Shown one piece after another: positions 8,050 through 36,806 of a stretch of 37,167 bases of DNA. Location: positions 1 through 37,167 of the forward strand of contig CANKEI010000003.1 of the NCBI GenBank assembly GCA_947481115.1. The letters run 5' to 3'. Numbering within the stretch: the stretch's first letter is position 1; the number at the start of each line of letters is the position of its first letter. Position numbers and translations under genes: made by a program. The notes under the pieces are model-generated. The model did no database searches, had not been told where the DNA came from, and worked only from the letters and a program-made list of their open reading frames with translations. Source of the DNA: a bacterium (GTDB lineage: Bacteria > Babelota > Babeliae > Babelales > JABDEC01).

Positions 8050-8140
8050 AGCTCTTACGTAACTATCTTGAAATAAAATTTTTTCCTGCTCCAGGCGTCG
8101 CCAGAGGCTATGCCGGACACGGTCGTCCAGACGTGTAGCC
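8047..8140 (+). repeat. Partial family A element (C2), left portion only
   Basis: tagagctcttacgtaactatcttgaaataaaattttttcctgctccaggcgtcgccagaggctatgccggacacggtcgtcc matches 22716 onward; right half absent. Confidence 0.85.
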
Positions 8141-11726: not shown

Positions 11727-11745
11727 TTAGACATAATTTTGAAAT

Positions 11746-11880
11746 TATGGTTCGATACGTCCCGATGGGGCATCCACCACGAACGGGCCAAAAAGTATTC
11801 TTTTTAGCTAGGTTCAGTAACCAATCTTCCACCACATTCCTCGACTGCGCTACGCTTCGCTCGGGACGAGCGGGATAAAA
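11746..11880. repeat. Composite element: half family B (tatggttcgata...) plus family A-like core
   Basis: tatggttcgatacgtcccgatggggcatccaccacgaacgggcc (cf. 31728) and cctcgactgcgctacgcttcgctcgggacgagcggg. Confidence 0.7.
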
Positions 11881-11934
11881 CTTTTGTGATAATTTTATTC
11901 GAGAAAAATTTATTAATTCTAAAATATTTATTGT

Positions 11935-12030
11935 TAGACTTTTTCCGTAATTCACAGTCTGATCTCGCAACATCCCCCCCTCGACTGACGCTCGGGGTGA
12001 GCGGGGTTCGGGACGAGCGTGATAAAGTCT
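11935..12030 (-). repeat. Partial family A element (C3)
   Basis: tagactttttccgtaattcacagtctgatctcgcaacatccccccctcgactgacgctcggggtgagcggggttcgggacgagcgtg. Confidence 0.85.
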
Positions 12031-12084
12031 TTTTGATAAAGAGTCCAACTCGAGTTTTACCATTTCAGTTCTCTATTTTTAATT

Positions 12085-12672
12085 TTAACCAGCCTGGTTA
12101 ATTTCAGTATGATTCTTAAGCGTCGCAATTGTTAATAACAAACTAACAGTTGGTGGAGTGTCTGGGTTAGATTCTAACTCTAAATTCTTAATATACACGC
12201 GTTTATTTTTTTCTAGCTCTTCTAGTAATTGTGTGACTTGCCACATATTTAGATCATCTAGTTTAATTTCTAAGATTAACTCTGAATAGCCCTTACTTTT
12301 TAACATGGCGGGCTCATTAGTAGTTAAGCGCGGCTTTTCTTGTAGTTTATTAGTTAAATTTAACTGCTCTGCAATGGTTTCAAAATAGTGCATAATTAAA
12401 AAGTTTTTGTCTTGCTGAATTAATTCATCGACCAAATTTTGTTGTTCACGAATAGTAAGCTCTTTACTGAGTAATTCTTGTACTTGAACACGCTTAGTAT
12501 TTAAAGTTCTAATATTTTTAATCATAGCTGCGGTGCGATAATTATAATAAAAAATTAAGCCACCGCAGAGTACCGAAAACGTACCTATGTAAACTAAAAT
12601 ATAGTTTCTAAACATGCTGCTATTTTGAGTAGCTAAAAAACTTTCAATGCGGGCGAGTAAGCGGTTAATCAT
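12085..12672 (-). CDS. GspM/PilO-like type II secretion/type IV pilus inner-membrane protein
   Basis: 195 aa, single N-terminal TM (NYILVYIGTFSVLCGGLIFYYNY), coiled-coil region; 4-bp overlap with the GspL/PilM-like gene. Confidence 0.55.
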   Translation of the reverse strand: MINRLLARIESFLATQNSSMFRNYILVYIGTFSVLCGGLIFYYNYRTAAMIKNIRTLNTKRVQVQELLSKELTIREQQNLVDELIQQDKNFLIMHYFETIAEQLNLTNKLQEKPRLTTNEPAMLKSKGYSELILEIKLDDLNMWQVTQLLEELEKNKRVYIKNLELESNPDTPPTVSLLLTIATLKNHTEINQAG

Positions 12673-14450
12673 AGTAATTGCTCCCCATTCTTAAGATTTA
12701 AGATAATCTCAAAATCGATATCTTGTGGTTCTTTAGATAATTCAAATAAGTTTGAATTTCTTAATTCAAAAGTTAGTTTATTGAGGGCCGCATAGTCTGC
12801 TTTTTGGCCCTGACCAGTGGTAATTTTACCTTGGAGTGTCATTTGGGTGTCTGCAATAGTTAGTAATTCTAGTTTTAGACCAAGTTCTTCAGGCTTAATA
12901 ATTTTACTTAACTCTTGTAGATATTCTAAGATTGAAACCCGAGTTTGCCGAGAGAAAGCAAACCAAATTTTAGACTCATGTTCGATTTTGCCTTCGGCAG
13001 ATCTAATAGCTAGCGGCAAAGTTTTCTTTTCTTTAGCATTTAAATTAAAGGTTTTGCTCAGACGATTAAGCGTTTCTAGTTCAGCTTTCTGTAATTTGCC
13101 ATCTAAGTTGCTAAGTTCCCAAAAAATATGGCCACTAATTGCACCCAAGATGATTAAGCTAAAGATTAAGCCAACTGCGATTTGATGCTTTAATAATCCG
13201 CTACTGGTGCGCCCATATTCTAAATTACTATGATCCTGGACAATGCTATTATACGCCCCCGCGATGGGACCATAATCGCTGGAGCTCAATTTGAGATTTG
13301 TTTTAAAAACTTTATTGTCTAATAATTTAGTTAGTTCTAAATTATAACACTTGATTTTGAAAGTTTGATTAATTAACTCTGATAGACCTGCAATAACTTG
13401 TTCGCTTTGTAACAATATAATTTGTTTGAGCTCAAGTTTGGCGTCAGAATTAATACCTGGGTGCTGGGCTTGTAGATTAACAGCAAAAGATTCTAACGTA
13501 GCTGAGATTAAATTAAAATATTCGCCCAAGACCGCTTTTAGCTGAGTGGTATGCGATTGATCAATCGCATGCGATAAATTAACGCGATTAATTAGTTCTA
13601 ATGCTTCGGGATAGCTAATTTTAGCCCGTTGCGAGAATTGCCGAGCTAGGTAATTAAATCCGCGTGGGATCACGCGCGAAAGCTGCAACTTGTTTTGATC
13701 TAAATAAATTATGGTAGTTGTGCTATCACCTAAATTCAAAACAATCTGCGCAGTTTGCTTTTTGCTTGTATTGGTCAGACTAACTTGATCGAAACTAGAT
13801 TTGTTTGCTGGTGTACTAGCTGGGGCAGTATTAACTTGATTGTGTGTCTGGCTGTGTGCCTGGTTATATGTTTGATTATATGATGTATGATAATCTGGAA
13901 TCTTTTGAAACAGCGCATAACTATCAAATAGCTCTACAGTAAATTGGTCAACACCTTTGAGGCCAGCTTTTTTAAATAAATCTTGGTAATACTCTAAATC
14001 TTTTTTCTGAACAATCGCTGCTAGTATTTGTGAGCTTTTTTTGCTTAAATCTTGACTGGTAATAATAAAACTAACGACGGCTTTATCGATTGCAAATGGT
14101 AGGTTAGCTTCAACTTCAAATTTAAGCACCTGATTGATTTTTTGCGCATCTAAGAATGGTAACTCAAGTTCTTTAAAGATCGTGTGCGTGCTGGGCACGG
14201 TAAAAGTAATTAAGCTAGATTTGTTTTTTTTGATAATTTTTTTAATAGCAGCTGAGACTAATTGTTCATAAGTTAAGCCAGAATCAAATTCCAGCTCTTC
14301 ACGATAAATTTCTTGAATCGTTACAGTGTTGCCCGCAGCTAAAATTTGACAAGCAGTGACATGATTACGATTGAGCGAAAAGCTTAAAATTTTTTGTGAA
14401 ATCAAATAGTAGTTGTTAATTACATTCGGAATAAACAGGTTTTGGATCAT
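12669..14450 (-). CDS. GspL/PilM(-PilN)-like actin-fold secretion/pilus assembly protein
   Basis: LITFTVPSTHTIFKELELPFLDAQKINQVLKFEVEANLPF, IVLNLGDSTTTIIYLDQNKLQLSRVIPRG (PilM-like), then TM IAVGLIFSLIILGAISGHIFW and a periplasmic domain. Confidence 0.75.
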   Translation of the reverse strand: MIQNLFIPNVINNYYLISQKILSFSLNRNHVTACQILAAGNTVTIQEIYREELEFDSGLTYEQLVSAAIKKIIKKNKSSLITFTVPSTHTIFKELELPFLDAQKINQVLKFEVEANLPFAIDKAVVSFIITSQDLSKKSSQILAAIVQKKDLEYYQDLFKKAGLKGVDQFTVELFDSYALFQKIPDYHTSYNQTYNQAHSQTHNQVNTAPASTPANKSSFDQVSLTNTSKKQTAQIVLNLGDSTTTIIYLDQNKLQLSRVIPRGFNYLARQFSQRAKISYPEALELINRVNLSHAIDQSHTTQLKAVLGEYFNLISATLESFAVNLQAQHPGINSDAKLELKQIILLQSEQVIAGLSELINQTFKIKCYNLELTKLLDNKVFKTNLKLSSSDYGPIAGAYNSIVQDHSNLEYGRTSSGLLKHQIAVGLIFSLIILGAISGHIFWELSNLDGKLQKAELETLNRLSKTFNLNAKEKKTLPLAIRSAEGKIEHESKIWFAFSRQTRVSILEYLQELSKIIKPEELGLKLELLTIADTQMTLQGKITTGQGQKADYAALNKLTFELRNSNLFELSKEPQDIDFEIILNLKNGEQLL

Positions 14451-17356
14451 GTGTTAAGCTCCTGGTCTAACTCCTGAGCTGTTTTTTTAGAATTTTGCTT
14501 GCCACTACTATTACTATTATTATCTTCTTGTTCACTATAATGGCTAGGAACACTTGCGAGTAGGGCTGATTTGCGACGTGGTAATACGGTTGTAGATGTA
14601 TCGGCTAGTTGTGCGGTTGATGTACCAACTGGTGCTAAACACATAGCGCCTGGTGTACCTTGGCGGCGATCGACAAACTTTTGTACTTCATCAGTTTCTT
14701 CGTGGCGATAATCTTTAAAGAACCATTTTACAATTGGATCACGACTCTTTGTTTTAGAATTTATTTCACCGAGTGCTTGTTGTAAATCTTCAGATTTGCT
14801 TAGTGTATAACTGCATGTTTGATCTTGGTCATTAGTGATAATTCTGGGCGTAATAAAGATTAATAGCGTGTCTTTAATATTTTCAGAAGTGCGATTTCTA
14901 AATAAGTTACCGATAATGGGAATTTTACTTAAAATTGGTACATTAGTTTCAGTGTTAGTAGTTGTGCGTTTAATTAAACCGCCCAATGCTAATACTTCAC
15001 CGTTGGCTACATTAGTACAAGTTTGCACCTCTTTAATTGATGTATTACCAGAATCTATATTGTCTGGATCATCACCTTTAACTGAGAAATTTTCAATTTT
15101 TATAGCTACTTCTAAATTGATTAAACCATCACTATTAATTTGAGGAATAATATTTAGCTCTAAGTTGGCCGACATTTCTTGAATGGCATTTAAGGTATTT
15201 CCAGTTGCTACTACAGTACCAGATGAAACGCGTCGAGTTTGTCCAACTACCACGCGGGCGGGATATTTATTAGTAGTGATCACAAATGGTGAAGCAATTA
15301 CATTGGTACGCGTATATCTATTTAAAACCCCAATCATAGCCCAGGCGCTATTTTTACCTAGTGAAATCAAGGTGGAGCCGGCCGTACTAGTTTGCGCCAA
15401 GGTTAATAAATTACCAATTAAGCTGCCAGTGGTCGGATCAGTGACTACTGCGCCGCCGTTAGTGGGATTGTTAAACCAACCACTTGTAGCAGCGTTCACA
15501 TTGCGATTTTGAGCACTGTTGATTTGAGAGTACAAACCTTTGAGGTCATCAGTTTGCAATGTCACAATAATTGCTTCGATAGCTACCTGGGGTTGTTTTT
15601 TATCCAGCTGTTTAATCACATCTAGGACTAATTTATAATCTTCTGGTTCGCCGCGAATGACTAAATTATTACCTTGAACTTCGGGTTCAAAATGTAAATT
15701 ACCAAATAAGCGATCTTGGCCATGCAACCGCGCTTGACCGGCACCTAAGTTAGCACCAGCTACGCCTGGTGTGGCGTTAGCACCAAATTGGGTCACTTGA
15801 TTTAATAGTTCCGCCATCTGTTTAGCTGGGGTATGATTTAGTGGCACCACCCAAAAATTGGTGCGTCGTCTTTGCAGATCAGTGTCAAACTCCTGCACAA
15901 TTTGTTCAACTGTAGCAATTGCTGTGCGAGAACCTAAAATCAAAAGTGTATTAGAGCGTGATTCTACGATTACGCGTGCTTCTTTGAGTGACGAACTGAG
16001 CTTATTACTTTTAGCAAATGGACTTTGATAACCATATTTATCAGCGCTAGTATCTTTGCCGCCTGCTAGTTTTTTAATTAAATCAGCAATTTCAGCTGCA
16101 TCGGCTTGCTTAAGTTTAATAATCGAGAGCATCTCGGGGGTATTAGCGCCGTCGAGTTCACGCACAATCTCCATCAGTGACTTAATATTATAAGCCGTGT
16201 CAGTGAAAATTAGCGCGCGTAGATTTGCGAAGCTGCTAATTTTAGCGTTCTTACTTTTGATTTTATCCAGCACTTCGAGCATTTGCGCGGGCGTGCTATT
16301 TTTTAAGAAATAAATATATCTAATTACACCACTCTCAGTGATTTTATTCGCATCGACATTAATAAATACGGGTACTACTTCTTGCATAGCTGTACCCAAT
16401 GCTGTAATACGGTAAATTGGTTCACTGACACCAGTGACACGCACGCGGGCATACCCAGCTACTTTTAAGAACTGGTCAGTTAGGTGCCATAATTCACTTT
16501 TAGTTAATGGTTGATTAGTTGCAAATGAGATCTTGCTATTTTCTAGGCCAGTTTTACTAGTAGAATTACTATTGCCTGCGCCAGTACTAGCACCATCTTC
16601 TTTGGGGCTATTGCTATAAGCATCTGGTTCTTTAGTGTCTTTAGATTTAGGTTCTTTAGTTGGCTTAATATCTTCATCGAAAACAAAACTGATTTTAAAG
16701 ATTAGTTCTACTTTTTTGAGAAAATTTAACAAACTAGCGTTCTCAAAATTTAATGAGATGTCAGCGCTAAATGGGGTATCTTGATTTAGATCTAAGTCTG
16801 AACTTAATTCCGGTCCGGTATTATTTGGGTTAATAGAATTATTATTAATAGCCAGACTATTTTTGGTGTCAAGTGTCTTAGTATCATGCGAATCTAGTAG
16901 TTTTGGTTTAGTTTTAGCGCGCGAGTTACTATTATTATTATCAACTAAGTTTTTACGAGCATGATTGTAGGGATTATTTTTAGCAGCCTGTGCGTCTAGT
17001 CCCACTAATTCTTCGGGCGTAGCTGGAAAATTAAACTCTTGAAAATCTGGTGTATTTTTAGTTGGTTTTAAAATCGGTGCTAAATCTAAATCTATATTGC
17101 GAGTGTTAGTTGCAAACTTTGTTCCAGAGACTATTGCTGAGTTAGTTTTATTTATCTCACCAGGGTTATTATTTGCACCAGCTTGTTCAGACACATTAGT
17201 ATCAGCAGTCTGGGCAACTGGCCTAGTTTTTTTAATACGCGCTGTAAGTGTATTGGTACTAATTAAAGTTAATAGTAGTAATAATACCAATAATACGTTC
17301 GTGGTGAGTTTTTTCGACTTCAGAAGAAAGAGTATCGAACCATTATGCATGTGCAC
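14447..17356 (-). CDS. gspD: Type II secretion secretin GspD-like
   Basis: 969 aa, signal peptide, N1/N2-type modules (LKQADAAEIADLIKKL, VVPLNHTPAKQMAELLNQV, VAIEAIIVTLQ), VANGEVLALGGLIKRTTTNTETNVPILSKIPIIGNLFRNRTSENIKDTLLIFITPRII. Confidence 0.92.
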   Translation of the reverse strand: MHMHNGSILFLLKSKKLTTNVLLVLLLLLTLISTNTLTARIKKTRPVAQTADTNVSEQAGANNNPGEINKTNSAIVSGTKFATNTRNIDLDLAPILKPTKNTPDFQEFNFPATPEELVGLDAQAAKNNPYNHARKNLVDNNNSNSRAKTKPKLLDSHDTKTLDTKNSLAINNNSINPNNTGPELSSDLDLNQDTPFSADISLNFENASLLNFLKKVELIFKISFVFDEDIKPTKEPKSKDTKEPDAYSNSPKEDGASTGAGNSNSTSKTGLENSKISFATNQPLTKSELWHLTDQFLKVAGYARVRVTGVSEPIYRITALGTAMQEVVPVFINVDANKITESGVIRYIYFLKNSTPAQMLEVLDKIKSKNAKISSFANLRALIFTDTAYNIKSLMEIVRELDGANTPEMLSIIKLKQADAAEIADLIKKLAGGKDTSADKYGYQSPFAKSNKLSSSLKEARVIVESRSNTLLILGSRTAIATVEQIVQEFDTDLQRRRTNFWVVPLNHTPAKQMAELLNQVTQFGANATPGVAGANLGAGQARLHGQDRLFGNLHFEPEVQGNNLVIRGEPEDYKLVLDVIKQLDKKQPQVAIEAIIVTLQTDDLKGLYSQINSAQNRNVNAATSGWFNNPTNGGAVVTDPTTGSLIGNLLTLAQTSTAGSTLISLGKNSAWAMIGVLNRYTRTNVIASPFVITTNKYPARVVVGQTRRVSSGTVVATGNTLNAIQEMSANLELNIIPQINSDGLINLEVAIKIENFSVKGDDPDNIDSGNTSIKEVQTCTNVANGEVLALGGLIKRTTTNTETNVPILSKIPIIGNLFRNRTSENIKDTLLIFITPRIITNDQDQTCSYTLSKSEDLQQALGEINSKTKSRDPIVKWFFKDYRHEETDEVQKFVDRRQGTPGAMCLAPVGTSTAQLADTSTTVLPRRKSALLASVPSHYSEQEDNNSNSSGKQNSKKTAQELDQELNT

Positions 17357-18611
17357 CTCCCTGAGCCTTTAACATCCGCTGACGATCTTGTTGTTGTATT
17401 TTTTCGAGTGTGTTTGGTTTATTTTGTGAAACAACTGGCACTGGAACTTGGGCTTCGCGTTTAAGATCGTTAATCTTTAAATCTTTCGGATGATCAGGTA
17501 ATACAAATTCAGCTTCGGAAATTTCTTGCGCACTACGCGTGGTACTTGGCGCTGGAACTAAGCGATTACGTAAGCTAATTTCTGGCTCTTCGTCAGTGAT
17601 ATTATAAGTCAGCTTAATTGGTTGATTGTGTCGCAAAATCTCGATTGTAAAATTAGTTAAATTATTAGAGTTACTAGAATTATTAGTATCAGTTTTATCC
17701 CGTTTATTAGTATCAGTTTTATCCCTTTCGTCCCGAGTGTAATCGAGGGATGTGACGGGTACAGAATTATTGCTGTTAGTAGTTAGCTTTTGGTAAATTT
17801 CAAATCTGTCTTTAGTGCTCTTAGTCGGAATATCCGCAATTGCTAAAATTATATCACCAGTTTCAAAACCAAGCGTGTTGCCCAGTGTTTTATAGCCAGC
17901 TTGACCAATGCGACAGCCTAGATTTTCACCATCTTGGAAAGCGGTTGTCAGGTCTAATAATTCAATTAGATTACCCAAATTTCGCACATGCTCAGTAAAC
18001 TGGTCTAGATCGATGGCAATTTGATGATATCCAGTAGTCTGAATAAACTTGCTCCAGTTAATATCAGTTTTTTCCATGTCGCTTTTAGCTTCACGTTGAT
18101 ATAAATATAAAGTTTCTTGTTGGCCATTGTTGCGCAATAATTCGACTTTATGTTTAGTAATATTAATAATCTGGGCATCTTGGACACGATCGCCAATGCG
18201 ATAGTTGGTTTCTTCTTTAGTAGTTTGATCTACGATAATGGCAACATTTTCTTGATTATTACCAAAGGTCATGATGCCAGTTAAATTAATATTTAGCGGT
18301 TCTAAGAACGGCGCGGCAAATGGCGCTAGCCCTTCTGGTTGACTCAATTCTGGTGCCAAGGGAAAATTATCTGATTCAACTGAAAATTCTTCGGTTAGTT
18401 CAGCAGGTTGTGATTTGGTGCCAAAAAGATCGTTTAAGTAAATTAAACTGTAATCTTGGACGTCAGAATGGATCACCTGGGATTGCGGAAGTGCAACCAG
18501 CGTAATCGATTTTATATTAGGCATTTTGACTGGCATAAATAAAATGAAATATGTGGAAGCCAAAAGCTCTAACAGTAAGATACTGTTTACAATCCAAAAG
18601 GGCTGCCGCAT
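17343..18611 (-). CDS. gspC: GspC-like protein with PDZ domain
   Basis: N-terminal TM (PFWIVNSILLLELLASTYFILFMP), HR-like domain (LTGIMTFGNNQENVAIIVDQTTKEETNYRIGDRVQDAQIINITKHKVELLRNNGQQETLYL), PDZ-like (LGFETGDIILAIADIPTKS); upstream of a secretin. Confidence 0.8.
   Translation of the reverse strand: MRQPFWIVNSILLLELLASTYFILFMPVKMPNIKSITLVALPQSQVIHSDVQDYSLIYLNDLFGTKSQPAELTEEFSVESDNFPLAPELSQPEGLAPFAAPFLEPLNINLTGIMTFGNNQENVAIIVDQTTKEETNYRIGDRVQDAQIINITKHKVELLRNNGQQETLYLYQREAKSDMEKTDINWSKFIQTTGYHQIAIDLDQFTEHVRNLGNLIELLDLTTAFQDGENLGCRIGQAGYKTLGNTLGFETGDIILAIADIPTKSTKDRFEIYQKLTTNSNNSVPVTSLDYTRDERDKTDTNKRDKTDTNNSSNSNNLTNFTIEILRHNQPIKLTYNITDEEPEISLRNRLVPAPSTTRSAQEISEAEFVLPDHPKDLKINDLKREAQVPVPVVSQNKPNTLEKIQQQDRQRMLKAQGGAHA
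17681..17765 (-). repeat. Family A core remnant and 21-bp direct duplication inside the GspC-like CDS
   Basis: tattagtatcagttttatccc at 17681-17701 and 17705-17725, followed by tttcgtcccgagtgtaatcgagggatgtgacgggt; encodes VTSLDYTRDERDKTDTNKRDKTDTN. Confidence 0.75.
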
Positions 18612-18677
18612 GCACACATTCCTTTGTTTTAGCTGATTCTCGAACAATACTCTGACGGATCTGATTTTTTGTCAAGC

Positions 18678-19727
18678 TTATGGCGTGACAATTTGTTCCA
18701 ATAGATCTGCAATAATATTATCAGTTGAAATTTGATTGGCTTGTGCTTCATAACTACGCGCAATTCTGTGGCGCAAGCAAGCCGGAGCGACTGCTTTAAT
18801 ATCATCAGGAATCACAAACTGGCGTTGGTGCATCAGTGCATAAGCTTTAGCGCTGTGATAAATTGCTAAACTGGCGCGTGGCGAAGCACCAAGTGCGATA
18901 TAGCCGGCGATAGTCAATTTAAATTTAGCGGGATTGCGCGTGGCTTGTACAATTTTTACAATATATTCGATAATTTTTTCATCGACATAAACTTGGTCGA
19001 CTAGCTCTTGAAGTAAAGTTAATTGGGGCTTAGAAATAATCGCATGGGTCTGAATCACTTGCTGTGACCTAGTAATAATCTGTTTTTCAACTTCACTATT
19101 GGGATATGGGACCAATAATTTAAACATAAAGCGATCTAGTTGTGCTTCTGGTAATAAATAAGTTCCCGATTGTTCAATTGGATTTTGGGTAGCAAAAACT
19201 AAAAACGGTAAATCTAATTTAAAACTCTCATTTCCAATGGTCACCTGTTGTTCTTGCATACACTCTAGTAAAGCAGATTGTACTTTAGCGGGGGCGCGAT
19301 TAATTTCGTCTGCTAGCACAATATTAGTAAACACTGGACCAGGTTTAATCACAAATTCTAGAGTTTTGGGATTATAAATCGAAGTGCCAATTAAATCACT
19401 GGGTAATAAATCTGGGGTAAACTGAATGCGTTTAAAATTCAGGCCTAACGCTTGGGCAACAGTTTTAACTAAAGTAGTTTTGGCAACACCCGGCATGCCT
19501 TCTAGTAACACGTGTCCGCGGCAAGCGATCGCGATTAGCATTAAATCGATTAGTTCTTGATTGCCTGCGATTACTTGGGAAATTTCAGTGCGCAGTGTAG
19601 CTAAAATTTGGGCAGCTTGCACTAAATTTTGGTTGTTTTGCGAATTATGGGTTGGCGACTGATTTAGTAGGGGTTGTGTAGCTTGGTCTTGTTCTGGTTT
19701 TAAATTTGCTTCTGGGTTATGGTTCAT
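18678..19727 (-). CDS. MoxR-family AAA+ ATPase
   Basis: VLLEGMPGVAKTTLVKTVAQALGLNFKRIQFTPDLLPSDLIGTSIYN, PGPVFTNIVLADEINRAPAKVQSALLECMQEQQVTIG, VFATQNPIEQSGTYLLPEAQLDRFMFKL, GASPRASLAI; start chosen at MNHNPEANLK (19727), the ORF upstream of it is repeat-derived. Confidence 0.93.
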   Translation of the reverse strand: MNHNPEANLKPEQDQATQPLLNQSPTHNSQNNQNLVQAAQILATLRTEISQVIAGNQELIDLMLIAIACRGHVLLEGMPGVAKTTLVKTVAQALGLNFKRIQFTPDLLPSDLIGTSIYNPKTLEFVIKPGPVFTNIVLADEINRAPAKVQSALLECMQEQQVTIGNESFKLDLPFLVFATQNPIEQSGTYLLPEAQLDRFMFKLLVPYPNSEVEKQIITRSQQVIQTHAIISKPQLTLLQELVDQVYVDEKIIEYIVKIVQATRNPAKFKLTIAGYIALGASPRASLAIYHSAKAYALMHQRQFVIPDDIKAVAPACLRHRIARSYEAQANQISTDNIIADLLEQIVTP

Positions 19728-19835
19728 AAAATTATTACTCGTAATTTTTGGGTTTACAAATTTAACTGTTTTTAAATTTAACCAAATTAATAGTTTTGTG
19801 CTAGAATGTCGCATGATGATTTTTAGGAGTCTTTT

Positions 19836-19895
19836 TCTCGCAACATCCCCCCCTCGACTGACGCTCAGGGTGAGCAGGGTTCGGGACGAGCGGGC
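19836..19895 (-). repeat. Partial family A core (C4) in the moxR/OMP divergent intergenic region
   Basis: ctcgcaacatccccccctcgactgacgctcagggtgagcagggttcgggacgagcggg. Confidence 0.85.
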
Positions 19896-19965
19896 GGGAC
19901 TATATGGATTTATGCGCCTGGTGAAGCAGTGTGTGTTTAGGAGTGGTATGCAGCGCAACGGTTAT

Positions 19966-21528
19966 ATGAAAAATAATATTTTAAGCATTAAGTTTTTTAG
20001 AAATTTTTTTTGCTTTTTAAATCTAATTTTGGTTTCTAATTTAATTTTAGCCGACGATAATACTAATCAAGTTAAAATTTCTAGTCGGGCTTGTCTCTGG
20101 CCGCGGATGCCATTTTATCCAACTACACCAGAAACTTTACCGCTCAATCGGACATTATTAGAGCCATATCAACAGGATCAGTTTTACCAAGTTTATTTTA
20201 CGCCCTACTTCTCTCAAACGGGTCATCATGATGATCTGGGTAGCTACTTTTTGCCTAACGGTAAATCATCTATGATTTGTGGCGAATTTGGTTGTACGGC
20301 CGCTTATAATGGCACTTTAGATGTGTTAGCAAATTACTTTAATGTATTTACTAATGCTATTCCTATTACTGGTGATCCAATTAGTTTACAAGATTATAGG
20401 TTTGAAAGTTTGGTTAAATTTAAACCAAAGCAAACTATGGTCGGGACAGCATTAACTTATCATCAGCATTTATCGGAATATTTAGACGAAGGTTTTTGGT
20501 GGGAATTTATTATTCCCTTATTAAATGTCACGAATGATTTACAAGTCTCAGAAGATTTTATTAACACCGGCACTGGGCCAACACCCGATGGTTATTACAA
20601 CAATATGATCGAAGCATTTCAGCAGCCAGGTTGGTACTATGGTAAAATCGATGACTCTGCTCGTTCAGCTTTTGGAATTGCCGATATTCAAGTTAAACTG
20701 GGTTACACATATAACAAAACTGAAACACATGCGTTTTCAACTTATTGGGGCATAATTTTACCAACTGGTAATACACCAGATGCCGAGTGGATGTTTGAAC
20801 CAGTGGTTGGTAATAACGGTCATATGGGTTTATATTCGGCTGCTTCACTTTTTTTTAGAGTCTGGCATTCCGAAGAGATGGGTTTATATTGGACGCTCGA
20901 TACGGCCGGAATTTTCTTTGGGGAAAATAAACAAATGCGGTCCTTTGATCTTAAGGGCAAACCATGGTCACGTTACATGTCAGTTTATGCTGATTATGGT
21001 GCAACTAGTGTGACGCCTGGTATTAATATTTTTACGCAATCGATGAATGTCACACCTGGGGCACAGCGCGATCTTAATCTGGGTTTCTTATTTAAGAATG
21101 GCGGCTTTAGAGGTGAATTTGGTTATCACGTATTTTGCCGCGCACAAGAAATAGTTAAGCTTGCTGGCCGTTGGGATAGTAATGCTGGTATCGCGGCGAT
21201 CTACGATAGCAATATCGGCAATATGATCGCTGGCGGGGCTACTCGTGATCAAGCGACAATTAATACTTATGGCAATATTACTAATGATCAAATTAACGCT
21301 AGTAGTACTACCGCGAAATTTTTAGCAATCTCCGAAGATCAAATTGATTTAAACTCTGCGGCGATGGCGGGCACTTTTTTAAATACTTTTTATGTGACAC
21401 TAAATTATTATTGGGCTGATCGACCACATCCAGTTTATTTAGCTGGTGGTGGTTCGTTTGACATGAAGACTGATAATACGGCGCCAGCAAAATGGGCAGC
21501 TTGGTTTAATTTAGGCTTAGAATTTTAA
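19966..21528 (+). CDS. Putative outer-membrane beta-barrel protein
   Basis: Signal-like MKNNILSIKFFRNFFCFLNLILVSNLILA, beta-rich, C-terminal AWFNLGLEF*; the 19798 ORF start lies in repeat-derived sequence. Confidence 0.7.
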   Translation: MKNNILSIKFFRNFFCFLNLILVSNLILADDNTNQVKISSRACLWPRMPFYPTTPETLPLNRTLLEPYQQDQFYQVYFTPYFSQTGHHDDLGSYFLPNGKSSMICGEFGCTAAYNGTLDVLANYFNVFTNAIPITGDPISLQDYRFESLVKFKPKQTMVGTALTYHQHLSEYLDEGFWWEFIIPLLNVTNDLQVSEDFINTGTGPTPDGYYNNMIEAFQQPGWYYGKIDDSARSAFGIADIQVKLGYTYNKTETHAFSTYWGIILPTGNTPDAEWMFEPVVGNNGHMGLYSAASLFFRVWHSEEMGLYWTLDTAGIFFGENKQMRSFDLKGKPWSRYMSVYADYGATSVTPGINIFTQSMNVTPGAQRDLNLGFLFKNGGFRGEFGYHVFCRAQEIVKLAGRWDSNAGIAAIYDSNIGNMIAGGATRDQATINTYGNITNDQINASSTTAKFLAISEDQIDLNSAAMAGTFLNTFYVTLNYYWADRPHPVYLAGGGSFDMKTDNTAPAKWAAWFNLGLEF

Positions 21529-22715: not shown

Positions 22716-22874
22716 TAGAGCTCTTCCGTAACTATCTTGAAATAAAATTTTTTCCCGCTCCAGGCGTCGCCAGAGGCTATGCCGGACACGCTCGTCCCGA
22801 ACCCCACTCACCCCGAGCGTCAGTCGAGGGGGGGGATGTTGCGAGTAGAAACTGTGAATTACGGAAGAAGTCTA
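22716..22874 (+). repeat. Full-length copy (C5) of palindromic MITE/RPE-like element, family A
   Basis: tagagctcttccgtaactatcttg...ctccaggcgtcgccagaggctatgccggacacgctcgtcccgaaccccactcaccccgagcgtcagtcgagggggggg...gaattacggaagaagtcta; inverse of 345-500. Confidence 0.9.
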
Positions 22875-25800
22875 TTAAAATTTTATGTCTCTTAAAATGT
22901 CTTCGATAGCGGAGTCTACTTTTCCTTCGAAGGCTTTTGCAATTTGCGCCATTGCCTCTTCCGCAGTCACTTCTCTGCCAGAAGCTTCGACCATGGCACT
23001 ACTGAGCTTTGTTTTTAATTCATCCGTCATTTCATTAACCTTCTGACCATACGTTATACCTTTTATTCTACCAAGTCTAATTTCATCAACAAGGTTTTCT
23101 ACTGCGTTAGCTTTGGATCCAGCAGCGCGATCTGTTGCTGTAGGCCCACCTTCTACTTCTTTTGCACGTGTACCGGCCTCAACTTTTTGACCCGCTCTCG
23201 TTCCTTTATCTGTAGAAATAGCTTCTGCTGTTCCGCTTCTATTAGCAGACTCATTCCCTTCAGCCTTTTCCTTAGCCTCAGCAACTTTCTTTTTATCCGC
23301 CGCCTTCTCTTTAAAGTATTTATATGTTGCAAAGCCCGCTCCTAAGAGGATTTGTAGTATGAACAAGCCCATCGCATACTCCGTAATATCCTGTGACCAG
23401 CTGCCGGTTCCTGGAGGAGGTTGCGGGGGAGTGGCTGTTTGGAAGTAACCTTGAACAGTGGAGTAGATTTGATAATCAGCCAATAACGCGAAGTAAGCAT
23501 CCATTGCTGGGACACTATATGGCGTATCACATTGCCAGTTACTAGTTATGTTGCCTGCGGCGTCTTTGGTTTGTACAACGCTACCAGCACACCAATTACT
23601 GACTATCGGCGATGGTGTTGTTTGATTAATTGAACCACTGAGCACAGCTGTTTTGTATTCTGTATAGTCAATTGCAATTTGGGGAAAATGAATCCCGGAA
23701 TATTGTCCTGGTAAGTCTTTAAAAGTAGTTTGACTGGGGCTCTCTGTGTTAGCAAGTAATGTGTTATTAGCATAAGCAACAGATAACTCCTTAGCTAGGT
23801 CGACATCATACATTGACCATGGCCCTACGATTAGTGGTGAAGGCATAGGATTTGGGAAGTTGAAGCTGACTTGGGTACCTAAAATTGGTACGCCATTTCC
23901 GCCGGTTGCGCCACTTAAGTAAGATGCTGGTGATGCAGTCTCAGCTTTACCATTGATCATTTCAATCAAAATTAAGGGCAATTCGGTAATTGGGAAATTA
24001 TTTATTGCATATAGCAACAATGGCATACTGCTGTTTTGATTAGTCATAGCAGCACTAGAACTATCTTGAAGTGCTGTGATCATATTTTGGAAAGCTGAGA
24101 ATAGGGCGCCTTGAATAATGCCATTGTCATTAGTATTATACAGACTTGCTAAAAGTGTAGTTAGGTCTGTAGTAAGCGTAGCAGCCGCACTGGCACCAGT
24201 ATTAATATCGCTAACTACAGCATTATAAAATTTAGGCATGTCAGTAGGAGAAGGATTGCCATTTTGAACGGCCATTTCACTTAATAAAGCTAGCATGTCA
24301 GCATTTAAGGTAGTGGTACCGCTAGCGCCAAGATCTAAATTTATATCTGTAATTAACTGTAATAATTCTGTGTTAAGATCAGTCATAGTAGATGGGAAAG
24401 TAGCATCAAGCAAGGCTTTCGTATCATTAGTCAAAGTTGTGCCAATTGCCATATCTAAATCAGCTACAACCGCTAAGGCTTCAGTATTAATTGCAAGATG
24501 ATTAGTTACAGCAGTAGGTGTGAGTTGTTGTAAAAGTTTGCTTAAATCAGCAAAAAGTATGGCCGAAGTGGCACCACTAGCAATATCTTCAATAATAGTA
24601 TTATAGGCGGCGCTAAGTTCAGCAGATACTGTAGCGTTACCATAAATATCTGTTAATAGTTTAGTTAAAGCGGCTGCAGTGGTATTAGCGGGGTTAGCAG
24701 CAGCAGCTGCTACAGCAGTATAGGCAGTAGTAATATTTTGGATTGCTTGTGTGATATCAACACTTAAGAGAGCATTTAGGTCAGTATTTAATTGTGTGGA
24801 TGTTTGCTCACTTAAAACATCTAAGATTAATGTTTGTAGAGCTGTTGCCAGCTGCGCTGGTTGAGTAGCGCCAAAGATATCAGTCATCAATCTATTCATA
24901 TCACCAGTTTGTGCAGTTTGCCCTAAATCAGACACTAGCTGATTGAAATCTGTTTTAATCTGGTCCGCACTGGCTGCAAGCGCTAAATGCGCTAAATATG
25001 TAAATAGATTCAATAAGTCAGTATTTAAAGCTTTAGCAGTAGCTGTGTAAGCATTGATATCGGTCACCATTTTATTATAAGGGGTAGCGATGTCTTCAGA
25101 TGGATTAAAGTTTGTAAATAGATTTAACAGATCAGCATATAATGCTGCTGAACCTGGATTAGCACTTTGTGCATCAGTGATTAATTGTTGGATGGCCGAA
25201 ATCATAGTGCCAGTTTGGGTAACTGTAGTTAGTTTGTTGATGAAGGTGGTTGTAGCGGGGATAGTGATACCAGTTATTAGGGTAGTATAAGCCAGCTCAA
25301 TGTTGTCTAAGGCGCTATTATTTGGGATTGGATTAAATAAGTAAGTCAACATGACCGGTAAGTATTTGTTTAAATTAATCAGGTTGTTAGTTTGGACGGC
25401 ATAAATTACATTTTCGATTTTATTTTCTACCATAGCTAATTGTCTGTCCGAAGGTGTGCCTGGAATTTTATTATTAGCGGCATTAGGATTATTATAATAT
25501 AGCGCTAAGTTGGCAGTGGCGATTGCAGCACTTTCCAATGTTTGTTGATAAATAGTTGCAATTTTGATCTGATTAGTTGGATTAAAATTATTTAGAATAT
25601 TAACTAAATCAGTATTTAAAGTTGCGCTTACGGGCTTTGTTGCCAGAGCATCTTTAGCCAGCTGTATAATAGCATTGGTTAAATCTAGGGTTAACTGATG
25701 ATTAGTGGTTAATGATCCCATTAATGTGGCGGCTAAGGCTGCTATTTCGGTGGGAGTTTCTCCAGATGTATTAATGCCAGCGACAAGTTTTCCGTAAGCA

Positions 25801-28800
25801 GTACTTACAGTAGTAAGTTCAGCAAGAGTGGCTAACGGATTAAATAAATAGGCCAGCATCTTCGGCAGGTATGGATAATTTAAGCTACCATAATTTTGAC
25901 CATTAATGTCATTAATTACTTGCGCTAAGTTGGTTTGAAGATTGATTAATTGTGCTGCTGTGAGGCCGGCATAAGGAGCCAAATTTTGCGTGGCGATTGC
26001 AGCGCCATTAACTAATTGAGCGTAGGTATTTTCGATAGCGACCTGGTTGGTAGGATTAAAATTAGCCAATAAATTTGCTAAGTCGGTATTTAAAGTTGCG
26101 CTTACGGGCTTTGTTGCCAGAGCATCAGTAGCGAGCTGTTGGATTGCTGTCATTAATGTAACTGGCTCTGTAGCGGTTGTAAGCGTGAGCATTAAACTAG
26201 CTAAGTCAGTTTGAATTTGTGCCGGAATATTATTTTTAATACTAGCAGTTAAGTTAGTATAAGCTGTTTGTGTCGCAGTTATATTAGCAGTAGTTGCTAA
26301 AGGATTAAACAAATAGCTCAAGCATGTTGGTATATCTGTATTTAAACCGGCAAAGCTTGGTGGTAAGTTAATACTATTAATTAACGCATCTAAGTTTGTT
26401 TCCATATTAGTTAATTGTGCGGCTGTAAGATTTTTATATGGAACTAGATTAGTGCTAGCAACAGCTGCGCTGTCAGCTAAAGATTGATAGGCGCTAGTAA
26501 TAGCATTTTGGTTAGTTGAATTAAAACTAGTCAGTATATTGTTTAAATCAGTATTTAAAGTTGCTGCGATTGGAGTAACTTGAGTGGTATCGATGATTAA
26601 TTGTTTAAGCGCTGAACTTAAAATATTTAATTCGGTGTTAGCGGTTAATTTTGCTAACAAGCTAACCATTAAGCTAGCAGCACTTGATCCATTAATACCG
26701 GCAACTAAACTAGTATAAGCTGTTTGTACGTTAGTGATTTCAGCGGCAGTTGCTAATGGATTAAATAAATAAGTTAAGAAATTTGGAATATCAGTGCTTA
26801 ATTGTGTAAAGCCATTAGTGTTAATATGGTTAATCAGATTACTTAAACTAGTTTCTAAATTAGTTAATTGTATTGGCGTGATTAAGGCTTTGGTGGCTAC
26901 ATTAGTATATGGGGCAATATTAGCAGTAGTTGTAGCAACACTGCTAGTTAAAAGCTGATAATAGTTAGCAATTACGCTAGCATTGGTAGGATTAAAGTTA
27001 ACTAAAAGATTATCAAGATCGGTGTTTAATGTAGTGGCTACCAAAGTAGTTCCTACAGCATCAGTAATTAATTGTTGTATAGCGGTTACTAACGCAGCTG
27101 GTATTTCAGCGCTAGTAACATTTGTGGTCGCAAGTAATGCTGCGATTAGTGCTGTAGTTAAGGTTGGAATGCTAGAATTGTTAGCTTTAATAGCATTTGC
27201 TAGATTGCTATATGCTGTTTCAACTATGGCTAAATTAGCTGGTGTAACTTGGGGGTTAAATAAGTAGGCTAATAAGGTGGGCAGAGTTGTATTTAGATTT
27301 GTAATCGGACTACTATTAATACTGCTAATTAAAGCTGCTAAGCTAGTAGTTAGAGAATTTAATTGCGCGGTTATATATGCCGTCATTTGTTCTGGCCATC
27401 TTTGTCCTTTAGGCACAGTGCTTAGAGCACTAAATAAGCTAATGAATAATTGCTGTTGGATTAACGGTACCGTGCTTTGTGGTACGATAGTTGTGAGCTC
27501 TGTAATAAAATCTGCTAATAATATTGGAGATAAGGCGCCTGTTTGCGGCAGAATAGTAGTCATAGCAGTAAATAGATTTTCCATGGTGGCTTGTTGACCA
27601 CTGGTTGGAATAGTAGTTAAGGCCGTGAACAAATCTCCTAAGGTAATGTTATCGCTGAGTGTGGTTATAGCTTTAAAGACAGCATCTAGGTCATCTTTTT
27701 GGCTAACATTAGGCACTGACTGAATGTCGGTAATTAATGCTTGATAAAGCGGCGCTACAGTATTATCAGCTTTAGTATCAGTTTCACCAAAAGCAAGATG
27801 AATCAAGTTGAGTGTGTCGGCTGCAAGATTGGCAGATTTACTGTTAACGTCAGTCAAGACAGTTTGGTATTGTGCATTAAGATCAACTTTAGCCTGTTGA
27901 AAAGGAATATTCAGAATAGCCGCAATGTCAGTATTTAAAGTGGCGCTATTAGCGGGAGTCTGAATATCATTAATTAAGCTATAATAAGCTTGACAAGGTA
28001 GTGGTCCAGTAAATGTGGTAGCCGGTGCTACTGGTGCAACGCAGGCGGTCGTGGTTGTTTGATAAATATCATTTAATACTGCACTCAATTGCTTGGCAAT
28101 ATAAGAACTAGAATATTTATTCTGGATATCTCCAACCAGAGTATTATAATCGCTTGCAAGATTGCTTTGTTGAAAAGTCTGATTTCCTTGTGGAATATCA
28201 TTGATATATAATTGCATAGCTTGGATTAAAGTTAGCAGATCAACATTAAGCGTAGTAGTTTTAACGGTGATGCTTTGGGAATCAATAATAAGCTGTTGAT
28301 AAGCATTTTGTAGGTTAGTTAACTGTGGACTACTTGTATCGCCAGTGAAAACCATGGCCCATAATGTAGCAAAAGCGGCCGTAAGTTTAGTATTATTTCT
28401 TAGATTATTAATCAGTGCTTGATAATCAGCCATAACTGTAGCGATATTGGCCCCTGTATTGTTTTGAGTAGCAGTTTGTTGTAAAAACGTTCCAAAATCT
28501 GTTTCTGTTTTTGTTCCTTTTGCTGTTTGAATATCTGTATAAAACTGGTACAGTGCTGTGGCTGCATTAGGAGTGGCAGAAGGAAACGTAATGCAATTGA
28601 GAGTGGTTGGGCAATAAATGGAGTTTAATAAGGCTGGAAAATCTGTTTTTTGCAACTGAATACTATCTGCCAAATCAGTTGTTAATTTATTATAGGCTGT
28701 GGAAATAGCTTGATAAGCTGGCAGCGGGGTTGAAGAACAACTAGCGTCAGTAGTGTCAGTGCAAATCTCTGGTTCCTTAGTAGTTGGATTTATCTTCAGC

Positions 28801-31499
28801 ATAGAAATGGCCTTACCCCATGGTGCTGGCAATAGTCTCTCATAATACGTTTTTTGTCCATCCATATCACCGTTTTTAACGGCAGTAAAATAAGCTTGAT
28901 AGTTAGGATTAATATAATTTCCATTAGCATCTTTACCATTTATAATTGGGTCTAGTGGACTACTTTGGTTAGACAAAATTAACATTAATTCTTCTTGTAA
29001 TTCAGCTAAATAAGCCTGGAGAGTAGTTGGCTCAGCACCTTTTAAGGCTTCACCAATAGTTGTAGACGGACCTATTTTAGTGATCGGTTCGCAATTTATT
29101 ACGGTTTTATCATTGCTCCTACAGTTGACTAAATTGCCGTTTTTATCACAGCAAGTGTTCCCGGTATATTTTAATTTATTAACATAATCAGTGGCGGCTT
29201 TGATCGTCAATAAATCACCAATCGCACTAGCATACGTTTGCCCAACGGTTAAATCATGGTTAAATATTTCATTGAAAGCGGTGATAGTTGTATTATATAT
29301 ATTGGCACAAATCAAATTATATAATGCGCCATTGGTAGGATCAGAATTAAAAAGACCTGGGGATCCTTGAGGCTGACAGGTACCAGTAGCGGCGCCAGTA
29401 GGTATGTCACAATAACTGTTTTGGCAGGTATAAGATAAGCCTAACTCTTTTGGGTAGATAACACTACAGTTTTCATTAGTTTTACATTGCAAGACGCATT
29501 GCCCATTTAAACAGATTAGGTCGGATGCATTATATGGCGTAGTCGGGTCAGTTGAAACTGTGCAGTCTGATGTTTGTCCGCAAGCACCGCCAAAGCAAGC
29601 AGGTTGTCCATATAAACCATCTGCAATTATGCAATTGAGACTTTCGGCTGTTCCCGTACAGGCATTGCTAGGTACGGAATAGATACAGGTGTTGATATTT
29701 GTGCCACAGGCTGCGGCATTTTCACAACAAACTGTACCATTGCAACACATAGTTCCATCAGCCGTATTCGTTGTTGTATTTAAGCATGATGCACCAATAC
29801 AGGAACCGACAATTTGGGTAAGGTTAAAATTAGTACCACTTGTAGAGCAGGTGATATAGTCATTGGTGTTGTCAGGGCACGAAATACCCAAGCTTAAATT
29901 ACTTTCAGAGAATAAACAGGTTATCCCTATAGTTACCGGTGGATTAGCGATATTGCCAGAACCTGTAGTCTCACTAGCATTAGATGGATTAATCATGAAA
30001 CCATAAATTGGACCACCATTCGATGTAGCATCGCTTGGTTGGCCAGAACCTTGAACTAAGGCATAGTTATAATCATAGGTGCCAGGCGTAGTTCCGCCAA
30101 TTACAAGACCAGGCCAAGTTGGATTTAAATATAGTTCTGATTCTTCAATAGCATTTAGTAGAGCTTGCGTATTGACACTTTCATCTGGATTAGTTTCGCT
30201 ACAGATCACACTAAATTGATTAAATAAACCATCTTGAGGGTTACTAATAATCTGGCAACTTAGAGTGCCGCTAATATCACAGCAGGCTGGTGGAGTCCCT
30301 CCTGTGACAGCGCATGTGCTTATACTGCCAGCGCAATTAGGCGCAATTTGGACATTCACTTTGATTTCTTGAGTTAATGCATAAATGGTAGGTACATTTG
30401 CAGCTGTAATAAGGGAAACATTATTTGAATTTAAATAGTTAATGCCACCAGTGCCAGCAGGCGGAGGAGCTTCTGTAGCACTAATATATTGATAGTAATC
30501 TGCACTATAGTTAGCATTTTTGATTAAGATGGATGGAATAGCGGTGAATGGTGTAGTATTACTGTTTAATGTATAAGTATCGAGCCCAAGGCCATGACAA
30601 GTATCAGTTTGCATACAATTAAGTACTGGTAATGGGTTATTGGGAGGTATAATCCAATTACCGTTACCATCCTTGTTTTTAGGATAATTTGTTGGAACCA
30701 GTGTGCAAACAGTTGTTTTACCATCTTCCGGCCATAATTGACAGGTTAAGCCACCTGTTAAGCCGCAGTTAGTAGCATCCATAGTACCAAGTGCAGTAGA
30801 GCAATTTGCGCCAGCATTGTTTAGGACGCATACGCCAGAATTTTGATCACATGCCAGATCTGGATTAGGGGTTATTTTATCATTTTGCAAGCAATCTTTG
30901 CTAGTTTGGCAAGCTGCGCCAATATTTGTGGCACAAATGCCTTCCGTACAATATAGATCATAATCTGATTTGCCATACGGCATATTAATGCAATCAGAAT
31001 TGGAAGCACATTTTTGCGCGACAGTCTGATAGGCTTGATTAATAATGCCTGCGGTGGTCGCAGATCCTTGATAAACACTGGTGCCAAGCATGTTAGCTTC
31101 AGCCAAAGCAATTTGGTCAAGTGTCCAGTTAATGGCACTCATAAAGCTAGTCGCTTTATCAACCACAAGTTGAAAATTAGTGCCATAGTTAGTGAGCGCA
31201 TCTACTATTTTATTATTTAATAAATCTGAAACGGATATCTGATCAAATGCTTCAAAAGCATCTACGTCAGTTTCATATTGTGGTAAACCGCAGCTTTGTT
31301 GGCAATTTACTATAGAGGCATTATCTTTATGGGCACATTGACAATAGGTGTTTTTACAATAGTTAATATCAAATGCGCCGCCAACAGGGCAGGAAGGGGG
31401 TGTTTGAGCAAATAGCTCTACAGGTACACCAGTTAATACTAGTGCTATGGTCAGTAAGCGACAAAGCTTTTTACTAATGGTTCGTATAAACTTATTCAT
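22875..31499 (-). CDS. Giant secreted/membrane-anchored repeat protein (2874 aa)
   Basis: Signal peptide (MNKFIRTISKKLCRLLTIALVLTGVPVELFAQ), Cys-rich N-terminal part, degenerate helical repeats (LNTDL..LL..FNPTN, YLFNPLAT..., AIQQLI.DA), C-terminal TM (EYAMGLFILQILLGAGFATYKYF) and charged tail. Confidence 0.85.
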   Translation of the reverse strand: MNKFIRTISKKLCRLLTIALVLTGVPVELFAQTPPSCPVGGAFDINYCKNTYCQCAHKDNASIVNCQQSCGLPQYETDVDAFEAFDQISVSDLLNNKIVDALTNYGTNFQLVVDKATSFMSAINWTLDQIALAEANMLGTSVYQGSATTAGIINQAYQTVAQKCASNSDCINMPYGKSDYDLYCTEGICATNIGAACQTSKDCLQNDKITPNPDLACDQNSGVCVLNNAGANCSTALGTMDATNCGLTGGLTCQLWPEDGKTTVCTLVPTNYPKNKDGNGNWIIPPNNPLPVLNCMQTDTCHGLGLDTYTLNSNTTPFTAIPSILIKNANYSADYYQYISATEAPPPAGTGGINYLNSNNVSLITAANVPTIYALTQEIKVNVQIAPNCAGSISTCAVTGGTPPACCDISGTLSCQIISNPQDGLFNQFSVICSETNPDESVNTQALLNAIEESELYLNPTWPGLVIGGTTPGTYDYNYALVQGSGQPSDATSNGGPIYGFMINPSNASETTGSGNIANPPVTIGITCLFSESNLSLGISCPDNTNDYITCSTSGTNFNLTQIVGSCIGASCLNTTTNTADGTMCCNGTVCCENAAACGTNINTCIYSVPSNACTGTAESLNCIIADGLYGQPACFGGACGQTSDCTVSTDPTTPYNASDLICLNGQCVLQCKTNENCSVIYPKELGLSYTCQNSYCDIPTGAATGTCQPQGSPGLFNSDPTNGALYNLICANIYNTTITAFNEIFNHDLTVGQTYASAIGDLLTIKAATDYVNKLKYTGNTCCDKNGNLVNCRSNDKTVINCEPITKIGPSTTIGEALKGAEPTTLQAYLAELQEELMLILSNQSSPLDPIINGKDANGNYINPNYQAYFTAVKNGDMDGQKTYYERLLPAPWGKAISMLKINPTTKEPEICTDTTDASCSSTPLPAYQAISTAYNKLTTDLADSIQLQKTDFPALLNSIYCPTTLNCITFPSATPNAATALYQFYTDIQTAKGTKTETDFGTFLQQTATQNNTGANIATVMADYQALINNLRNNTKLTAAFATLWAMVFTGDTSSPQLTNLQNAYQQLIIDSQSITVKTTTLNVDLLTLIQAMQLYINDIPQGNQTFQQSNLASDYNTLVGDIQNKYSSSYIAKQLSAVLNDIYQTTTTACVAPVAPATTFTGPLPCQAYYSLINDIQTPANSATLNTDIAAILNIPFQQAKVDLNAQYQTVLTDVNSKSANLAADTLNLIHLAFGETDTKADNTVAPLYQALITDIQSVPNVSQKDDLDAVFKAITTLSDNITLGDLFTALTTIPTSGQQATMENLFTAMTTILPQTGALSPILLADFITELTTIVPQSTVPLIQQQLFISLFSALSTVPKGQRWPEQMTAYITAQLNSLTTSLAALISSINSSPITNLNTTLPTLLAYLFNPQVTPANLAIVETAYSNLANAIKANNSSIPTLTTALIAALLATTNVTSAEIPAALVTAIQQLITDAVGTTLVATTLNTDLDNLLVNFNPTNASVIANYYQLLTSSVATTTANIAPYTNVATKALITPIQLTNLETSLSNLINHINTNGFTQLSTDIPNFLTYLFNPLATAAEITNVQTAYTSLVAGINGSSAASLMVSLLAKLTANTELNILSSALKQLIIDTTQVTPIAATLNTDLNNILTSFNSTNQNAITSAYQSLADSAAVASTNLVPYKNLTAAQLTNMETNLDALINSINLPPSFAGLNTDIPTCLSYLFNPLATTANITATQTAYTNLTASIKNNIPAQIQTDLASLMLTLTTATEPVTLMTAIQQLATDALATKPVSATLNTDLANLLANFNPTNQVAIENTYAQLVNGAAIATQNLAPYAGLTAAQLINLQTNLAQVINDINGQNYGSLNYPYLPKMLAYLFNPLATLAELTTVSTAYGKLVAGINTSGETPTEIAALAATLMGSLTTNHQLTLDLTNAIIQLAKDALATKPVSATLNTDLVNILNNFNPTNQIKIATIYQQTLESAAIATANLALYYNNPNAANNKIPGTPSDRQLAMVENKIENVIYAVQTNNLINLNKYLPVMLTYLFNPIPNNSALDNIELAYTTLITGITIPATTTFINKLTTVTQTGTMISAIQQLITDAQSANPGSAALYADLLNLFTNFNPSEDIATPYNKMVTDINAYTATAKALNTDLLNLFTYLAHLALAASADQIKTDFNQLVSDLGQTAQTGDMNRLMTDIFGATQPAQLATALQTLILDVLSEQTSTQLNTDLNALLSVDITQAIQNITTAYTAVAAAAANPANTTAAALTKLLTDIYGNATVSAELSAAYNTIIEDIASGATSAILFADLSKLLQQLTPTAVTNHLAINTEALAVVADLDMAIGTTLTNDTKALLDATFPSTMTDLNTELLQLITDINLDLGASGTTTLNADMLALLSEMAVQNGNPSPTDMPKFYNAVVSDINTGASAAATLTTDLTTLLASLYNTNDNGIIQGALFSAFQNMITALQDSSSAAMTNQNSSMPLLLYAINNFPITELPLILIEMINGKAETASPASYLSGATGGNGVPILGTQVSFNFPNPMPSPLIVGPWSMYDVDLAKELSVAYANNTLLANTESPSQTTFKDLPGQYSGIHFPQIAIDYTEYKTAVLSGSINQTTPSPIVSNWCAGSVVQTKDAAGNITSNWQCDTPYSVPAMDAYFALLADYQIYSTVQGYFQTATPPQPPPGTGSWSQDITEYAMGLFILQILLGAGFATYKYFKEKAADKKKVAEAKEKAEGNESANRSGTAEAISTDKGTRAGQKVEAGTRAKEVEGGPTATDRAAGSKANAVENLVDEIRLGRIKGITYGQKVNEMTDELKTKLSSAMVEASGREVTAEEAMAQIAKAFEGKVDSAIEDILRDIKF
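25100..27600 (-). repeat. Degenerate internal coding repeats of the giant ORF, about 455-507 nt per unit
   Basis: YLFNP codon blocks (ggattaaayaartar on +) at about 25330, 25837, 26302, 26758 and 27253. Confidence 0.8.
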
Positions 31500-31727
31500 A
31501 AATATCTGTCCCCAAAATCTTTTGGTTTCCCCAAAAAATTAATTTAATATTTTTGATATTAACAATTAATTTAATTCTTAATAATTACACTTAGGTTAAG
31601 AATAATTAAACTAGTGATTGAGATACAAGAGTATGGGGATAATTATTGGATTAACTGTTATGTTAGGGCCTAAACTTGAAAAATTTAGTTTAAGTTGTGT
31701 GGACGATTTATGTGTTTATAGATTATT

Positions 31728-31824
31728 TATGGTTCGATATGCCCTAATGGGCTACTCGCCACGAACGTGCCCAGCGACTGTACCCGTCATATCTTTTTGG
31801 ATATGACGGGTGTATCGAACCATA
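31728..31824. repeat. Family B palindromic element with 12-bp TIRs and internal hairpin
   Basis: tatggttcgata ... tatcgaaccata ends; internal acccgtcatatc-tttttg-gatatgacgggt perfect 12-bp stem. Confidence 0.85.
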
Positions 31825-31843
31825 TCAACTAGTTTCATTTCTA

Positions 31844-36442: not shown

Positions 36443-36515
36443 TTTCCCGCTCCAGGCGTCGCCAGAGGCTATGCCGGACACGGTCGTCCCGAGCGAAGTC
36501 GAGGGATGCTGCGGG
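36443..36515 (+). repeat. Partial family A element (C6) between atpD and atpC
   Basis: tttcccgctccaggcgtcgccagaggctatgccggacacggtcgtcccgagcgaagtcgagggatgctgcggg. Confidence 0.85.
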
Positions 36516-36560
36516 TATGATTTCGAGAACAAACTATATATTGTGAAAGAAATTATATCT

Positions 36561-36806
36561 ATGAAACTACAGTTAATTTCGCTGGATCAACCAGTGTATG
36601 AATATGAAATTAGTTGGCTAGAATTAGATACAACTACCGGTAATTATGTAATTCAGCCGGGTCATGCACCCATGATTTTAATTTTAACACCAGACTCTAA
36701 AGTAACTTGTTGTTTAGTTAGAAACGGCGAACAAAAATTGTTTATAATTCGAGATGGGATAGTGCATATTAAACGAGATGGTATAATCTTGAGTTACAAT
36801 AGTTAA
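36561..36806 (+). CDS. atpC: ATP synthase epsilon subunit, short form
   Basis: MKLQLISLDQPVYEYEISWLELDTTTGNYVIQPGHAPMILILTPDSKVTCCLVRNGEQKLFIIRDGIVHIKRDGIILSYNS; follows atpD; the longer ORF start (36471) lies in the repeat. Confidence 0.8.
   Translation: MKLQLISLDQPVYEYEISWLELDTTTGNYVIQPGHAPMILILTPDSKVTCCLVRNGEQKLFIIRDGIVHIKRDGIILSYNS

Follow-up and report, generated by a model that had tools for sequence, protein, structure and literature searches.

A giant exported repeat protein of a Dependentiae genome, predicted to be membrane anchored, and the lineage-restricted cysteine module in its head

Dependentiae are inhabitants of protist cells and have a very small toolkit; the protein described here, for which no relative was found, takes up about 1% of the reduced genome of one of them. 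The window, a stretch of 37,167 nucleotides, is the entire contig 3 of a Ca. Dependentiae genome (882 kb, 75% complete, 70 contigs), whose Lon has its best named match, at 63%, in a Candidatus Dependentiae MAG. A sequence-only reading had described an uninterrupted ORF of 8.6 kb. We find the same ORF, of 2,874 aa, at positions 22875-31499 and can assign it to the minus strand, as we do all parts of the gene given below. It runs from an ATG start to a TAA stop without an internal stop, and a GGGGA is sited ~10 nt upstream of the ATG. With 2,874 codons the giant is the longest ORF of the genome; the next frames are of 2,006 aa and then 1,230 aa.

The protein begins with a Sec signal peptide, aa 1-31 (31407-31499), which was recognized by direct reading and hydropathy and had been noted earlier. 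Its sequence, MNKFIRTISKKLCRLLTIALVLTGVPVELFAQ, has a hydrophobic core at residues 12-30 by inspection and a predicted end at ..VELFA-Q, and the lipobox Cys is absent. The Cys-rich head that follows, aa 32-970 (28590-31406), holds 58 of the 64 Cys of the protein, while only 3 (1153, 1169, and 1726) lie between residues 970 and 2636, so that both the Cys-rich head and the nearly Cys-free body of the sequence-only reading are borne out. When an HMM is trained solely on the genome's other proteins, it locates three copies of a module of the form GxxCxxxxDC..C..C in the head: module 1 at aa 162-189 (30933-31016; 6.2 bits), module 2 at aa 194-224 (30828-30920; 14.1 bits), and module 3 at aa 637-668 (29496-29591; 11.4 bits). 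All three also match a profile that includes the giant's own modules.

The start of the helical body, aa 931-2476 (24072-28709), takes in the final Cys of the head. What had been described as Asn/Thr/Leu/Ala-rich repeats can be refined to helix hairpins of ~38 aa, with the form LNTDLxxLLxxFNPxx..IxxxYxxLxxxI, nested in superunits of ~155 aa, the best preserved of which (four full and one partial) span aa 1398-2148 (25056-27308). The repeat profile, made from 14 seeds, gives 30 positive-scoring copies, and 8 non-seed copies score above 5 bits versus 0.24 in composition-matched shuffles. An AlphaFold2 model of one superunit, computed with nine paralogous rows, is all-helical with a mean pLDDT of 68, which supports the helical nature proposed for the body. 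The model of two superunits (three rows) was discarded at a pLDDT of 38, and the solenoid geometry is for this reason only a candidate. In TPR solenoids each hairpin adds about 1 nm. By analogy, our guess is that 30-40 hairpins at ~1 nm each might reach 30-40 nm, beyond a typical periplasm.

A non-repetitive juxtamembrane region without a homologue, aa 2477-2707 (23379-24071), contains 2 Cys (2637 and 2657) and leads into the predicted transmembrane helix, aa 2708-2726 (23322-23378). On an insertion-energy scale, applied in a simplified form, this segment is the top-scoring membrane segment of the giant. By Kyte-Doolittle alone it is not unique, since two other segments share its value near 1.56; what sets it apart is its insertion energy together with the charge asymmetry, K+R being 0 in the 15 residues before it and 6 in the 15 after. 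Given this asymmetry, the Lys/Glu/Ala-rich charged tail, aa 2727-2874 (22878-23321), should be cytoplasmic, and the transmembrane score and the K/R distribution thus support the orientation suggested previously, with the bulk of the protein outside the cytoplasm and the tail inside. The single C-terminal transmembrane segment of the sequence-only reading stands; the length given for the tail, roughly 170 aa, does not, as the tail measures 148 aa.

The earlier statement that the giant belongs to no known family is supported by searches of several kinds. The best Pfam match, with an E of 0.067, falls short at 13 bits of the cut-off of 27, NCBIfam gave none, the best PHROGs match was at 0.0089 without any stretch passing by itself, and PDB sequences gave no match. 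A Foldseek search of the one-superunit model (pLDDT 68) against PDB and BFVD returned nothing at E<=0.001. The two-helix repeat of ~38 aa is like that of TPR and other helix-hairpin solenoids, but the giant is without a Pfam repeat match: there is no Pfam TPR match at E<=1, and TPR structures appear in the Foldseek search only at E about 4 or more. Autotransporter, two-partner, and RTX adhesins were rejected, as there is no Pfam match of any kind (beta-barrel, TPS, or RTX) and the modelled body is helical. The MYXO-CTERM and GlyGly-CTERM surface proteins are likewise exported and carry a C-terminal transmembrane segment followed by basic residues; however, their signals stop at the C-terminus, whereas the giant has 148 residues beyond its transmembrane segment, and membership was rejected.

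Secreted ankyrin and ORFan proteins with a presumed role in host contact have been described in the Dependentiae Babela and Chromulinavorax (PMC6561590, PMC4378268). The giant has in common with these proteins the phylum, a signal peptide, the repeat build, and the presumed host contact, but it has no ankyrin signature and is built instead from ~38-aa hairpins with the LNTDLxxLL motif, together with a Cys head and a transmembrane anchor. The Giant1-5 proteins of Apilactobacillus (PMC12863079) are, like the giant, thousands of residues long, exported, and lineage-restricted; they come from another phylum with another envelope and are likened here by description, not by sequence. Within the phylum, another Dependentiae genome (G026) encodes a signal-peptide ORF of 2,504 aa (L228 5189-12703) that is unrelated to the giant, so that this genome is not the only one in the phylum with a giant exported ORF. 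Within the searches made, the family is new, while the kind of protein, a giant exported membrane-anchored repeat protein, is already known.

Size-variable orthologues, which the sequence-only reading had proposed to look for, were not found in 48 relatives with the full protein or in about 100 with the repeat, the head, or the C-terminus. Specifically, a search with the whole giant in 48 further genomes of its order gave no match, nor did one with the repeat profile in 101 other genomes of the phylum; the head and the C-terminus had none in 94 other Dependentiae, with weak, short matches at E 0.03-0.15. GTDB contigs and IMG/VR gave no homologue of the giant, and phmmer and BLAST found no clear relative of it in its own genome.

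A long repeat ORF that stands alone might be an artefact of assembly. This was rejected because the superunits are too diverged (identity only ~40-50% at the protein and ~55% at the DNA level), no tandem DNA array was found in the superunit region, and the flanks are in the order typical of Dependentiae. It might also be a repeat ORFan, neutral or expanded by slippage, that does nothing important, as repeats expand easily and no orthologue was found. The differences between the giant's own repeat copies make this very improbable: synonymous differences between superunits are saturated (pS 0.64-0.83) while nonsynonymous ones are restrained (pN 0.33-0.41), and conservation is highest at the second codon position; the 8.6 kb also stay open in a reduced genome. 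This pattern of differences indicates, independently of any orthologue, that the giant is a real gene whose protein sequence is under selection.

The head module connects the giant with other proteins of its genome. It is also found in ORFs of contigs C1, C2, C13, C15, and C21, and several other ORFs of the genome combine a signal peptide with many Cys; the giant has both the signal peptide and the module. With the HMM made from the other proteins, the giant's head scores 14.1 and 11.4 bits, whereas the highest value among 500 shuffled heads is 10.9; its summed module score is 34.6 bits versus at most 16.6 in the shuffled heads. The seeds were proteins of the same genome other than the giant, chosen by eye for the CxxxxDC pattern, and the test therefore shows a shared pattern and spacing only, which may reflect either a common origin or convergence. 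A profile to which the giant's three modules were added matches 14 sites of the genome on 6 contigs (E 2e-6 to 6e-4), while in 94 other Dependentiae no match is better than 0.03; since the 14 sites are largely its seeds, it is the lack of matches elsewhere that is informative.

Some of the other Cys-rich proteins resemble the giant in layout. Contig 13 (L149) carries three tandem Cys-rich, single-TM, long-tailed ORFs at 14220-16538 (772 aa), 17468-19117 (549 aa), and 19303-19998, the third being incomplete with its 5' part outside the stretch read; the middle one has no match in 94 other Dependentiae. An ORF of contig 21 (L157 3-2726), a 907-aa fragment whose 5' end is lost at the contig end, has 62 Cys with knottin-like CC spacing, a transmembrane segment, a tail of ~370 aa, and a weak ankyrin match below the cut-off. 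All four have a Cys ectodomain, one transmembrane segment that is preceded by 0-1 K/R and followed by a larger number, and a tail of ~115-370 aa. Outside the module, neither the heads nor the tails can be aligned with those of the giant (pairwise z -1 to 4.2), so that neither homology of the tails nor common descent of the whole proteins is supported. By its module the giant is the extreme member of a lineage-restricted Cys-module secretome. The module marks off a limited group of exported, lineage-specific proteins, and it is this group, rather than the giant alone, that provides a testable list for host contact. The genome also encodes DsbD and an exported PDI-like protein that contains an APWCGHC site and two stretches resembling thioredoxin; the pair would serve well for disulfides of exported proteins.

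From its topology and its shared module, the giant looks like a binding protein that is anchored in the membrane, extracytoplasmic, and presumably borne on a helical stalk. We give a probability of about 0.5 to the reading that it crosses the inner membrane once and carries a disulfide-knotted head on such a stalk, serving in host contact or envelope bridging. In this mechanism, as we infer it, Sec would export the protein and the signal peptide would be removed, leaving the N-terminus outside, and helix 2708-2726 would stop transfer so that the 148-aa tail remains cytoplasmic. The ectodomain of ~2,660 aa would then consist of a disulfide-knotted, membrane-distal head on an elongated helix-hairpin solenoid, the disulfides being formed and maintained by the exported PDI-like and DsbD proteins. 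Its likeliest job would be to display the head where bacterium and host meet or across the envelope, in company with the other lineage-restricted Cys-module proteins that may bind host or envelope partners. Host contact is favoured by the lifestyle (PMC6561590, PMC4378268) and by the lineage restriction. The sequence-only reading had likewise suggested a periplasm-spanning or surface fibre with a part in host interaction; nothing computed places the giant beyond the outer membrane, and surface exposure would need an unexplained extra step, because with an inner-membrane anchor and nothing more the protein would stay periplasmic.

That same anchor fits without any further export step if the giant is a periplasmic scaffold or tether, a helical rod from the inner membrane to the peptidoglycan or the outer membrane with an envelope role and no host contact. 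We regard this as possible though on balance unlikely, as Pfam and NCBIfam revealed no peptidoglycan- or outer-membrane-binding domain, and a lineage-only distribution with modules in shorter proteins fits a variable interaction role better. A speculative and rather improbable reading is that the lineage has a home-grown receptor-like set (Cys-knot ectodomain, single transmembrane segment, and cytoplasmic tail) in which the giant would be a long-reach host sensor or adhesin signalling inward via its tail.

The giant lies between galE and lon, with a T2SS block, moxR, and galE on one side and lon and the ATP synthase genes on the other, in Dependentiae order. Two other genomes (G002 and G008) have T2SS genes, moxR, an outer-membrane-like ORF, and galE, then a small ORF, a sugar-kinase-like gene, and lon; no homologue of this kinase was found in the searched part of the giant's genome, and the giant could have arrived by insertion or by replacement. 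Nothing about the giant can be learned from the sister species (G001), whose lon is 95% identical, because its contig stops 65 bp past lon, with unrelated sequence there, and galE is unassembled. In the one T2SS block of the window (9400-17356) there are two distinct secretin genes of GspD type.

The T2SS genes of the window, together with GspE- and pseudopilin-like genes in other parts of the genome, could speak for a released effector, exported by the T2SS or, given the vesicle release described for C. destructans (PMC6561590), in vesicles, and acting in the host with its hydrophobic segment entering a host membrane. However, the relatives have the T2SS-moxR-galE-lon neighbourhood without the giant; the neighbourhood is ancestral, so that T2SS adjacency is uninformative, and we rejected it as functional evidence. 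No defining sequence signal is known for T2SS substrates, and an internal stop-transfer transmembrane segment is not a known feature of them; the latter counts against release. We consider this reading improbable.

The gene is bordered on both sides by dispersed repeats. Directly after it lies a REP-like element (22739-22835, minus strand) with 39 matches genome-wide; other copies in the window are at 383-462, 8070-8131, 11974-12021, 19847-19892, and 36443-36492. Three copies overlap the 5' ends of ORFs, namely a secretin gene (9400-12063), moxR (18678-19958) with an overlapping ORF (19798-21528), and atpC (36471-36806), so the listed starts of these ORFs are probably too far upstream. The spacer between lon and the giant contains a palindromic element of 114 nt (31721-31834, minus strand) that folds strongly into a cloverleaf-like form (z -8). 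Its ends, ATGGTTCGATA, occur 7 times in the window at up to one mismatch versus 0.6 expected, and partial copies are present elsewhere.
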